From a virus, in IMG/VR virus record IMGVR_UViG_3300044911_000639, positions 1-25,538 of that record: 25,538 bases of DNA. One strand, 5' to 3'. The notes under the pieces were generated by a model. It saw only the letters and a program-made list of their open reading frames with translations, had not been told where the DNA came from and made no database searches. Shown piece by piece: positions 3,400-17,699 of the stretch. The position numbers and the translations under genes were made by a program. How positions within the stretch are numbered: the first letter of the stretch is position 1; each line of letters begins with the position of its first letter.

Positions 3400-3428
3400 A
3401 ACAAAAAACCCACCCCGAAGGGTGGGTT
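3400..3428 (-). terminator. Intrinsic terminator after the major capsid gene
   Basis: On the minus strand a 9-bp perfect stem, AACCCACCC pairing with GGGTGGGTT, closes a TTCG tetraloop (plus-strand loop 3416-3419). A T-rich tail (TTTTGTTG) follows. It starts 25 bases after the capsid stop codon. The U tract is on the minus strand only, so it ends late transcription after the capsid gene. Confidence 0.85.
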
Positions 3429-11086: not shown

Positions 11087-11111
11087 AAAGTGGACAACAG
11101 TTGTCCACTTT
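11087..11111. promoter_or_regulatory. Palindrome copy 1 (TGGACAA-N3-TTGTCCA)
   Basis: This copy has 12-bp arms around a single central A. It ends 16 bases before the ATG of the 11128 gene and directly precedes its ribosome binding site. It is one of five matching sites, all in gaps of the early region. The seven-base core arms are invariant between copies, as expected for a dimeric protein site. Confidence 0.8.
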
Positions 11112-11127: not shown

Positions 11128-11595
11128 ATGGAAACGAAAGTTAAAAGCAATATCAACTACGAAACCGTTCAGAAAGCGGTTGCGAAAAATGCAAAAGAGA
11201 AAATGCAATTAATCATTTTCTTGTACAAGACATGGGCGAAAGAGTCTGACCGACTCGCTTCGTTGCCTGAGAACCCGTTCGGCGCAACAGGTTTCACTGT
11301 TGGCAAGTTCATTGCTGAATGGTCTAAGACATTGGAATACGAACACCAAAAAGCTTTGGCAGTTTCGTTCAAGAAGCGCATTGAAGAGATGCATCGTGTT
11401 GCATTGAAAGGCATTGATATCAACAAGATCCTTGATACGAAAATGCTTGCTGAGAATGCGTTGCTTAAAACGCCTGCTGTTAAGCCTGCTGTTAAGCCTG
11501 CCAAGGTTGGCACTGTGAATGCCTTGTTCAACACCAAGGAATTCAAGGCTTTGCCTGCTGATGTTCGTAAGGCAATCAAGGCTTCGGTCAAGTAA
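11128..11595 (+). CDS. Unknown helical early protein
   Basis: This 155-residue protein is mostly helical and rich in Lys and Ala. After METKVKSNINYETVQKAV it has a long helix region, a low-complexity linker near residue 115 (KTPAVKPAVKPAKVG) and a C-terminal segment NTKEFKALPADVRKAIKASV. No known domain is recognised. ATG at 11128 follows AAAGGAAAAAAA. A long upstream in-frame extension would run through the palindrome and is rejected. It lies alone between palindrome copies 1 and 2, so it may be a separately controlled unit. Confidence 0.7.
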   Translation: METKVKSNINYETVQKAVAKNAKEKMQLIIFLYKTWAKESDRLASLPENPFGATGFTVGKFIAEWSKTLEYEHQKALAVSFKKRIEEMHRVALKGIDINKILDTKMLAENALLKTPAVKPAVKPAKVGTVNALFNTKEFKALPADVRKAIKASVK

Positions 11596-11596
11596 T

Positions 11597-11619
11597 AACT
11601 GGACAATAGTTGTCCACTT
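11597..11619. promoter_or_regulatory. Palindrome copy 2
   Basis: TGGACAA (11600-11606) and TTGTCCA (11610-11616) flank TAG. The arm extends outward with a C-C mismatch at 11599/11617 and then A-T pairs. It starts just after the stop of the 11128 gene and ends directly before the first hammerhead ribozyme. Confidence 0.8.
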
Positions 11620-11622
11620 TTA

Positions 11623-11680
11623 GTTGAAACGCCGTGAGGCGTATAGCAGAGTTCGCCTACTGCTACTGATGATACAGGCG
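11623..11680 (+). ncRNA. Type II hammerhead ribozyme 1 (HHR1)
   Basis: In type II order the elements are: open stem II strand GTT (11623-11625); conserved GAA (11626-11628); stem III ACGCC/GGCGT (11629-11633 with 11638-11642) closed by a GTGA tetraloop; cleavage base A11643; stem I TAGCAG/CTGCTA (11644-11649 with 11660-11665); CTGATGA (11666-11672); and the second stem II strand TAC (11673-11675). Loop I CGCCT (11654-11658) pairs with AGGCG (11676-11680) as a pseudoknot. Every invariant core base is present. The stem II pair nearest the core is U-U, so stem II is weak and the pseudoknot must help. Cleavage is expected between 11643 and 11644, before the ribosome binding site of the 11699 gene. 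Confidence 0.85.
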
Positions 11681-11698
11681 TACCGAAAGGGTAATGAC

Positions 11699-11863
11699 AT
11701 GACACGAATATTTGAGTTAGTTGAATACGAGCATTACGATGTTCTTTACGAGGACGGTGTTCTTGCTGTTGCCGATACTGTTGGTGGCGCATGGGAATGT
11801 GTTCGTGAAGAGGATGAAGCCGATGTGCAAGCATGGCTTGATGTTTTCTACGCTCGTTCATGA
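11699..11863 (+). CDS. Small acidic protein between two hammerhead ribozymes
   Basis: This 54-residue acidic protein (MTRIFELVEYEHYDVLYEDG and on) has alternating strands and a C-terminal helix ending WLDVFYARS. No motif is recognised. ATG at 11699 follows GAAAGGGTAATGAC. Its TGA stop codon (11861-11863) forms part of stem II of the second hammerhead, so the ribozyme can fold fully only when ribosomes have left the end of the gene. Both transcript ends of this gene would thus be set by self-cleavage. Confidence 0.65.
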   Translation: MTRIFELVEYEHYDVLYEDGVLAVADTVGGAWECVREEDEADVQAWLDVFYARS

Positions 11864-11921
11864 CGAAACGCCTTCGGGCGTAATCCGCAGGTGTGCTCTG
11901 CGGGTCTGATGAGTCAGCACA
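11861..11921 (+). ncRNA. Type II hammerhead ribozyme 2 (HHR2)
   Basis: Elements in order: stem II strand GAC (11862-11864, with U11861 as a possible fourth pair); GAA (11865-11867); stem III ACGCC/GGCGT (11868-11872 with 11877-11881) with a TTCG tetraloop; cleavage base A11882; stem I 11883-11890 with 11898-11905 (8 bp, one G-U); CTGATGA (11906-11912); stem II strand GTC (11913-11915). Loop I TGTGCT (11892-11897) pairs exactly with AGCACA (11916-11921) as a pseudoknot. Stem III is identical to HHR1 but the tetraloop differs (TTCG against GTGA), while stem I and the pseudoknot change with pairing kept. Cleavage is expected between 11882 and 11883. All core positions fit the family. Confidence 0.92.
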
Positions 11922-11937
11922 ACGAAAGGAAATCACA

Positions 11938-12291
11938 ATGTTCAAATATATTTTGTGGCTTGGGTCATCGGTGCTTTGCGCCTTTGGCTTTACTGCCATG
12001 CTCCAGCGATTGTTGCTTGTTCCCGAACACCGTGAACGAGCACGCTATCGCAACTCGTTTCACGATCACAGTTCTCATGATGACTTGGAGATCATTCTTG
12101 ACGACGACATGTGTTTGTTTCATTGGCGAACTGATTGCGTGTGTTTTGATGCGCCTGTTGTGATTGCAGATGTACACGATCCGTATGAGGTTGTGTTGCC
12201 GTTTCACCAACGCATTGAGCCACCTGATTGGGTTGATGGTTGGGTTGCACCGCAAGTGAAGTGGGTTGTGAAACCTAAAGTTAATAAGTAA
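11938..12291 (+). CDS. Membrane-anchored protein of unknown function
   Basis: This 117-residue protein starts with a hydrophobic helix (about residues 3-27: MFKYILWLGSSVLCAFGFTA and on) with few charges before it, consistent with a signal anchor. A charged His/Asp-rich stretch follows (SFHDHSSHDDLEIILDDD), then a domain with CLFHWRTDCVCF and a Trp-rich end (PPDWVDGWVAPQVKWV). No family is recognised. ATG at 11938 follows CGAAAGG, 9 bases upstream, in the 3' product of HHR2 cleavage. It ends at palindrome copy 3. Confidence 0.65.
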   Translation: MFKYILWLGSSVLCAFGFTAMLQRLLLVPEHRERARYRNSFHDHSSHDDLEIILDDDMCLFHWRTDCVCFDAPVVIADVHDPYEVVLPFHQRIEPPDWVDGWVAPQVKWVVKPKVNK

Positions 12292-12312
12292 GTGGACAAT
12301 AGTTGTCCACTT
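12290..12312. promoter_or_regulatory. Palindrome copy 3
   Basis: AAGTGGACAA (12290-12299) and TTGTCCACTT (12303-12312) flank TAG, a perfect 10-bp arm pair. It overlaps the end of the 11938 gene and abuts the first base of the structured leader at 12313. Confidence 0.8.
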
Positions 12313-12383
12313 TGCGTAGCCATGCGTGGCTTGTTCGGGTTCAATTCCCGACTACGCACTACCGAATACAATCCCGTATCGGT
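12313..12383 (+). ncRNA. Structured leader RNA A with tRNA acceptor/T-arm-like half
   Basis: P1 TGCGTAG/CTACGCA (12313-12319 with 12352-12358, 7 bp) encloses a small CCA-TGCG-TGG hairpin (12320-12329) and P3 TCGGG/CCCGA (12335-12339 with 12347-12351) with a 7-base loop TTCAATT. P3 joins P1 directly, exactly as a tRNA T-arm joins the acceptor stem, and the loop fits the T-loop pattern. No anticodon arm is present. P4, ACCGA(A)TAC pairing with GTATCGGT (12361-12383), has one bulged A. A second copy at 13565-13650 keeps P1, P3 and P4 with changed bases. The leader ends before GAAAGG of the 12404 gene. Confidence 0.7.
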
Positions 12384-12403
12384 TACATGAAAGGTAAATC
12401 ATA

Positions 12404-12664
12404 ATGAATATAGACCAAGATGATCTCTACGATGTCGCAGGTTATCTGCAACATCTAGAGAGTGTCGTTGCGCAACAGCGTATTGACACAGCGAATGTCA
12501 TTGCTGGTTTGCAGGAGGCACGCAATGTGTTGTCTCGTGCATTGACGAGTAACCAGGCTGATGCTCTTGAGCGTCGTGCTCGTGATGTTGAGCGTCGTGC
12601 AAAGTTGGCTGAGTTGCAAGCCAAGTATCCTGCTCGCCCAATCATTACTGTGGCAGGTGAATGA
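12404..12664 (+). CDS. Coiled-coil protein of unknown function
   Basis: This 86-residue protein is almost entirely helical, with heptad-like Leu/Val spacing (LYDVAGYLQHLESVVAQQRI, then VIAGLQEARNVLSRALTS) and an Arg/Glu-rich central part (ALERRARDVERRAKLAELQA). It probably oligomerises. No family is recognised. ATG at 12404 follows AAAGGTAAATCATA. It ends with a 4-base overlap (ATGA) to the next small membrane gene. Confidence 0.65.
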   Translation: MNIDQDDLYDVAGYLQHLESVVAQQRIDTANVIAGLQEARNVLSRALTSNQADALERRARDVERRAKLAELQAKYPARPIITVAGE

Positions 12665-13539: not shown

Positions 13540-13565
13540 AAAGTGGACAATAGTTGTCCACTTTT
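13539..13565. promoter_or_regulatory. Palindrome copy 4
   Basis: This is the longest uninterrupted copy: 12-bp arms (13539-13550 with 13554-13565) around TAG. It begins on the last base of the 13087 stop and runs into structured leader B. The A-rich left and T-rich right flanks make it look like a weak two-way terminator as RNA, but the other copies lack a T tract. Confidence 0.8.
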
Positions 13566-13650
13566 GCCTACCCATGCGTGGCACCACATTCGTGTGTGTG
13601 TTGAGTTCGCAACTCAAGTAGTGCACTACCGAACACAATACCGTGTCGGT
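13565..13650 (+). ncRNA. Structured leader RNA B (paralogue of leader A)
   Basis: P1 is TGC-CTAC (13565-13571) paired with GTAG-(T)-GCA (13618-13625), so the inner four pairs are the reverse of leader A with pairing kept. The CCATGCGTGG hairpin (13572-13581) is identical. An inserted stretch (13582-13600) may form a weak extra hairpin. P3 is TTGAG/CTCAA (13601-13605 with 13613-13617), which can extend to 7 bp with a CGC loop. P4 ACCGA(A)CAC/GTGTCGGT (13628-13636 with 13643-13650) keeps the bulged A and swaps one T-A pair for C-G. The AAAGGAG site of the 13670 gene follows. Confidence 0.7.
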
Positions 13651-13669
13651 TACATAAAAGGAGAAAGAA

Positions 13670-17678: not shown

Positions 17679-17699
17679 ACTGGACAACAATTGTCCACT
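17679..17699. promoter_or_regulatory. Palindrome copy 5
   Basis: TGGACAA (17681-17687) and TTGTCCA (17691-17697) flank CAA. As in copy 2, the next base outward is C on both sides, so the arm breaks there. It ends 17 bases before the ATG at 17717 and directly precedes the ribosome binding site, the same layout as copy 1. Confidence 0.8.

Follow-up and report, generated by a model that had tools for sequence, protein, structure and literature searches.

Two type II hammerhead ribozymes bracketing an exchanged gene in the early region of an uncultured tailed phage

Bacterial and phage hammerhead ribozymes were surveyed in 2011 by Perreault et al. (PMC3088659), and their role was left open. Prophage hammerheads were found often to flank individual genes or short gene blocks. 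Three tandem hammerhead arrays cleaved in vitro, one of them also in E. coli.

The window analysed here is a stretch of 25,538 nucleotides from IMG/VR record IMGVR_UViG_3300044911_000639 and is part of an uncultured tailed phage. Genes for terminase, portal and major head protein are located in a leftward arm, and genes for exonuclease, helicase and primase in a rightward arm. A strong G+C-rich hairpin between the leftward structural genes (AACCCACCCcgaaGGGTGGGTT, 3407-3428) is probably a terminator. In the rightward arm, on the same strand as the early genes and between small genes without known relatives, two type II hammerheads bracket a gene of 54 codons. In a DNA search of phage records, the matches were all short and distant and lay upstream of the ribozymes. 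Probably both hammerheads are active, process the early polycistronic RNA and delimit, as fixed borders, a slot in which the gene can be exchanged.

Structure of the two ribozymes

The locus is composed of the following features.

11128-11595, + strand: upstream gene U, 155 aa, differing between relatives
11600-11616, + strand: palindrome TGGACAAtagTTGTCCA, just upstream of copy 1; another palindrome is found there in relatives
11623-11680, + strand: type II hammerhead copy 1, from sequence, model R1 (54.7 bits, E 7e-14) and lineage alignment
11623-11625 and 11673-11675, + strand: copy 1 stem II strands, U.U at 10.1-11.1, then A-U and C-G
11626-11628, + strand: copy 1 GAA core
11629-11633 and 11638-11642, + strand: copy 1 stem III, loop GTGA
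11643/11644, + strand: predicted copy 1 cut, after A11643 of the GUA triplet
11644-11649 and 11660-11665, + strand: copy 1 stem I
11666-11672, + strand: copy 1 CUGAUGA core
11654-11658 with 11676-11680, + strand: copy 1 loop I pseudoknot, 5 Watson-Crick pairs
11686-11691, + strand: ribosome-binding site AAAGGG of the flanked gene, about five bases past the copy 1 pseudoknot
11699-11863, + strand: flanked gene, 54 codons and TGA; no relatives of the protein found in phage records or IMG/VR
11861-11921, + strand: type II hammerhead copy 2, from sequence, RF02276 (34.6 bits) and model R1 (53.5 bits, E 1.6e-13)
11861-11864 and 11913-11916, + strand: copy 2 stem II, fully paired, TGAC/GTCA
11865-11867, + strand: copy 2 GAA core
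11868-11872 and 11877-11881, + strand: copy 2 stem III, loop TTCG
11882/11883, + strand: predicted copy 2 cut, after A11882 of the GUA triplet
11883-11890 and 11898-11905, + strand: copy 2 stem I
11906-11912, + strand: copy 2 CUGAUGA core
11892-11897 with 11916-11921, + strand: copy 2 loop I pseudoknot, 6 Watson-Crick pairs
11925-11930, + strand: ribosome-binding site AAAGGA of the downstream gene, past the copy 2 pseudoknot
11938-12291, + strand: downstream gene, 117 aa, no assigned family, with homologues in some relatives

Both copies contain the GAA and CUGAUGA core, the A15.1-U16.1 pair and GUA as the NUH cleavage triplet, in the order open stem II, closed stem III, closed stem I. Copy 1 reads GTT-GAA-ACGCC(GTGA)GGCGT-A, cut, TAGCAG(AGTTCGCCTA)CTGCTA-CTGATGA-TAC-AGGCG, and copy 2 reads TGAC-GAA-ACGCC(TTCG)GGCGT-A, cut, ATCCGCAG(GTGTGCT)CTGCGGGT-CTGATGA-GTC-AGCACA. 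All elements named in an initial annotation of the window were thereby recovered at its positions, on the + strand and on either side of the 54-codon gene. Its description of an open stem II in both copies was correct for copy 2, which is fully paired, but overlooked a mismatch in copy 1. Copy 1 is weaker than described there because its stem II begins with U.U.

U10.1-U11.1 is present in natural hammerheads and allows more cleavage than any other mispair at this position (PMC3088659). An alternative stem II for copy 1 with a bulged U, like that of the TGGC/GCC members, was not preferred, as at most one pair would be left at the junction. Copy 1 may be a slow cutter, given its U.U, its GUA rather than the usual GUC and its place below the Rfam cut-off. 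With the same U.U, the same triplet and no Rfam match, it could even be a decaying, inactive ribozyme beside a working copy 2. Decay is nevertheless unlikely, as copy 1 is unchanged in nine contigs (the window counted) despite differing neighbour genes, and its mismatch is the one reported to be tolerated best. Cleavage by copy 1 is likely.

Copy 2 has the three-way junction as its minimum-energy fold, with four pairs in stem II; A11916 can be used either by stem II or by the pseudoknot. Cleavage by copy 2 is very likely.

Model scores, covariation and frequency in phages

A covariance-model search had been proposed in the initial annotation as a check, and the outcome was divided between the two models used. 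An Rfam search of the window at the gathering threshold gave no match. RF02276 spans copy 2 from end to end with 34.6 bits against a cut-off of 37 (E 3.7e-5 in 801 nt, 0.0012 in the whole window), and copy 1 was not listed by RF02276 even below threshold. The cut-off is a database threshold and no structural feature. Model R1, a covariance model made from 60 aligned ribozymes of other phages with close relatives of the window left out, matched both copies and nothing else in the window, at the scores given above. These E-values overstate the independence of the test, because the training sequences were picked by a pattern that both copies fit. Stem III and core were fixed by the choice of the training set, and independent evidence therefore comes from stem I, stem II and the pseudoknot.

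The loop I pseudoknots and their covariation were supported, with 5 and 6 pairs in the two copies and covariation across the 60 phage ribozymes. Over the whole structure, 88.2% of the paired cells in these 60 sequences can pair, compared to 66.1% in shuffled and 30-42% in slid controls. Against shuffled tails the pseudoknot runs gave P values of 0.084 (copy 1) and 0.022 (copy 2); taken individually these are modest, and the weight comes from covariation over many phages. A hammerhead II descriptor found only the two copies in the window, and nothing in 400 simulated windows with the same dinucleotide make-up. A DNA pattern with fixed stem III and CUGAUGA occurred in at least 119 viral-contig stretches, compared to 4 for the reversed pattern. 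The identical stem III of the two copies is the family consensus and by itself no sign of duplication. Among 123 phage ribozymes outside the lineage, the third base of the cleavage triplet was C in 114, U in 5 and A in 4; it is A in both copies here.

The initial annotation regarded a ribozyme pair around one gene as unusual. This view was not upheld: the 2011 survey already described such flanking (PMC3088659), and in the phage stretches examined it is a common arrangement. R1 found 232 ribozymes in the 118 stretches searched, some of which have about ten in a row. With a stricter descriptor 182 ribozymes were found in 108 stretches, 31 of which hold at least two and none of which has them on both strands. 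Ribozyme numbers per phage are lower bounds, because each locus was taken as an extract of at most 15 kb. Neighbouring ribozymes of the descriptor set are separated by a median gap of 454 nt, and 36 of the 65 neighbouring pairs closer than 1.5 kb enclose exactly one predicted gene, genes being counted by a simple rule of start codon plus ribosome-binding site. In L120, L110, L100/L071, L052 and L096, runs of about seven to eleven type II hammerheads were seen, all pointing the same way and with one at nearly every gene.

Constant ribozymes and exchanged genes in relatives

Relatives of the locus, all of them metagenomic contigs, were found with the variable segments of the two copies as DNA queries. 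Both ribozymes are present in seven contigs: the window, L019, L128, L130, L132, L133 and the variant L134. The overlap between stop codon and copy 2 stem II, formed in the window by the TGA at 11861-11863, is kept in all seven. Copy 1 is present in L127, L129, L131, L136, L137, L139 and L141, where the stretches searched gave no second ribozyme; L127 ends about 25 nt past copy 1 and is uninformative on copy 2.

The gene between the ribozymes falls into three unrelated families: one of 54 aa, found in the window only; one of 68 aa in L019, L132, L133 and L134 (79-100% identity); and one of 61-62 aa in L128 and L130 (68% identity). None of the three was linked to another by blastp at E 1e-3, and the 68-aa protein had no relatives in phage records. 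In L129 and L131 the cassette is absent and copy 1 runs straight into a gene matching window 12404-12664. After copy 2, a gene of 114-117 aa is present in the window, L019, L132 and L128 and absent from that place in L130, L133 and L134. These gene combinations look like assortment around constant ribozymes.

By BLAST the ribozymes stand out as islands of 95-100% identity (about 92% in the case of L134 copy 2), and the stretches around them often fail to align. In other phages, too, ribozymes of 94-100% identity from end to end have neighbours that show little or no similarity on one side or on both, for example in L006/L015/L069/L095 and L036/L037/L080/L101. As stem I and the tail differ greatly among family members, such identity points to a descent of the ribozymes separate from that of their neighbours. 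The islands would also fit a role of the ribozymes mainly as recombination borders, that is as short conserved junctions for homologous recombination, with RNA cleavage of little importance, and so would the stem III variant that the two copies of L134 have in common. We consider this quite unlikely, since stem I, stem II and the pseudoknot covary, which argues that the RNA structure is under selection. Moreover, the cassette-free L129 and L131 keep an intact copy 1 and no copy 1/copy 2 hybrid.

Natural variants were found in the lineage. L089 has loop I and pseudoknot in common with copy 1 and has a different yet fully paired stem I, a compensatory change. U15.1-A16.1 replaces A15.1-U16.1 in L134, L136, L137, L139 and L141, and a hammerhead with U15.1-A16.1 has been shown to self-cleave, less efficiently (PMC3088659). 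The two ribozymes of L134 (3772-3836 and 4054-4119) both carry it and are identical over the 17 nt of stem III, suggestive of conversion between the copies. With U.U at 10.1-11.1 and U15.1-A16.1, the lineage offers natural variants for rate measurements in one setting.

Other elements of the region also differ between relatives. A palindrome, TGGACAAnnnTTGTCCA, occurs in the window at five dispersed intergenic sites (11091-11107, 11600-11616, 12293-12309, 13544-13560 and 17681-17697). All five matching sites of L128 hold a different palindrome (GGAACnnnnGTTCC, mostly TTGGAACGnnCGTTCCAA) in nearly the same flanks, and other relatives have TGACTTAATTAAGTCA or TTAATACAnnnTGTATTAA. Because the palindromes switch jointly between phages, they suggest either phage-specific sites like operators or stoperators or RNA hairpins, together with a cognate factor. 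Gene U lies between the first and the second palindrome; relatives have a replaced or mosaic version of it that goes with their palindrome type, which makes it a candidate for the palindrome-recognising protein. It gave no family match. Its models were of low confidence (mean pLDDT 69.5 and 45.8) and a PDB fold search with the better one found none (best E 2.9), so no DNA-binding fold is assignable. An RNA-like element follows palindromes 3 and 4 (window 12313-12395 and 13565-13655; L128 4815-4897 and 6036-6117) and is conserved. It resembles a small tRNA-like three-way junction, with an outer stem, a GCCATGCGTGGC arm and a T-arm-like hairpin that shows compensatory changes. A second hairpin comes next, and ARAGORN called no tRNA in the element.

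Proposed processing of early RNA and a possible gene slot

Most economically, the two ribozymes would serve to divide the early polycistronic RNA into messages of one gene each, with hairpins at their ends. In the proposed mechanism, stems I and III would fold, loop I would dock on the bases after stem II and the RNA would be cut after GUA. Cuts at the two predicted sites would yield three RNAs: an upstream piece with the stem III hairpin at its 3' end, a one-gene piece of 239 nt and a downstream piece. The new 5' ends would be 5'-OH groups at the base of the stem I hairpin, and the new 3' ends would carry stem III and a cyclic phosphate. The start codons at 11699 and 11938 each stand shortly after a ribozyme and then a ribosome-binding site, so that each new 5' end would be placed shortly before such a site. 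For each small gene the likely benefit would be an RNA with a short leader and protected ends, by which decay and translation of neighbours would become independent. The analysis shows the sequence, the structure and its covariation, and also that the ribozymes stay constant and the gene is replaced; cleavage, end protection, an effect on expression and the route of exchange are inferred.

The position of the ribozymes also suggests a switch gated by translation, in which a ribosome terminating upstream or initiating downstream would open stem II or the pseudoknot and only untranslated RNA would be cut. The stop codon in copy 2 stem II, the ribosome-binding sites close behind the pseudoknots and, in phage ribozymes in general, a median of 3 nt from the end of the upstream stop to GAA are consistent with such gating. 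It is improbable all the same, as the spacing may merely reflect the compactness of phage genomes and the stem II strand of copy 1 lies 27 nt past the upstream stop codon. Circularisation of the excised RNA by the ribozymes into a circular message is highly improbable: two ribozymes in the same orientation yield the 5'-OH and cyclic phosphate ends needed for ligation, but the stem II strands at those ends do not pair (UAC of copy 1 against GAC of copy 2 leaves U.C and A.A mismatches and one C-G pair), and circular or spliced products were sought and none found (PMC3088659), although a host ligase may be another route to a circular RNA.

RNA processing remains the preferred reading, and beside it the two ribozymes would be the constant borders of a slot whose gene is exchanged between phages. 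Tentatively, the same may apply more widely in phage early operons, where hammerheads would be the fixed borders of a slot for one exchangeable gene. If so, a standard intercistronic part of stop codon, ribozyme and ribosome-binding site would make an incoming gene an independently processed message, and genes would be swappable without disturbing their neighbours. The ribozymes may promote exchange at the slot, render it harmless or merely persist there. A literature search, which is weak because it covered few subscription journals, gave no report of ribozyme-bordered cassette exchange. The constant ribozymes around an exchanged gene provide a concrete, testable proposal, insulating borders for swappable early genes.

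Compared to the type II hammerheads of RF02276, both copies share the short open stem II, the closed stems I and III, the GAA and CUGAUGA segments, the pseudoknot of loop I with the bases that follow stem II, and the occurrence in phage DNA. They differ in the U.U at 10.1-11.1 of copy 1, and in the GUA triplet of both, which lie below or outside the Rfam cut-off. The locus also resembles the prophage hammerhead clusters described earlier (PMC3088659, Figure 3), where several ribozymes in one orientation surround small genes of changing identity. In contrast to those clusters, one locus has here been traced in close relatives, in which the same two ribozymes stay while the gene between them is replaced or absent.
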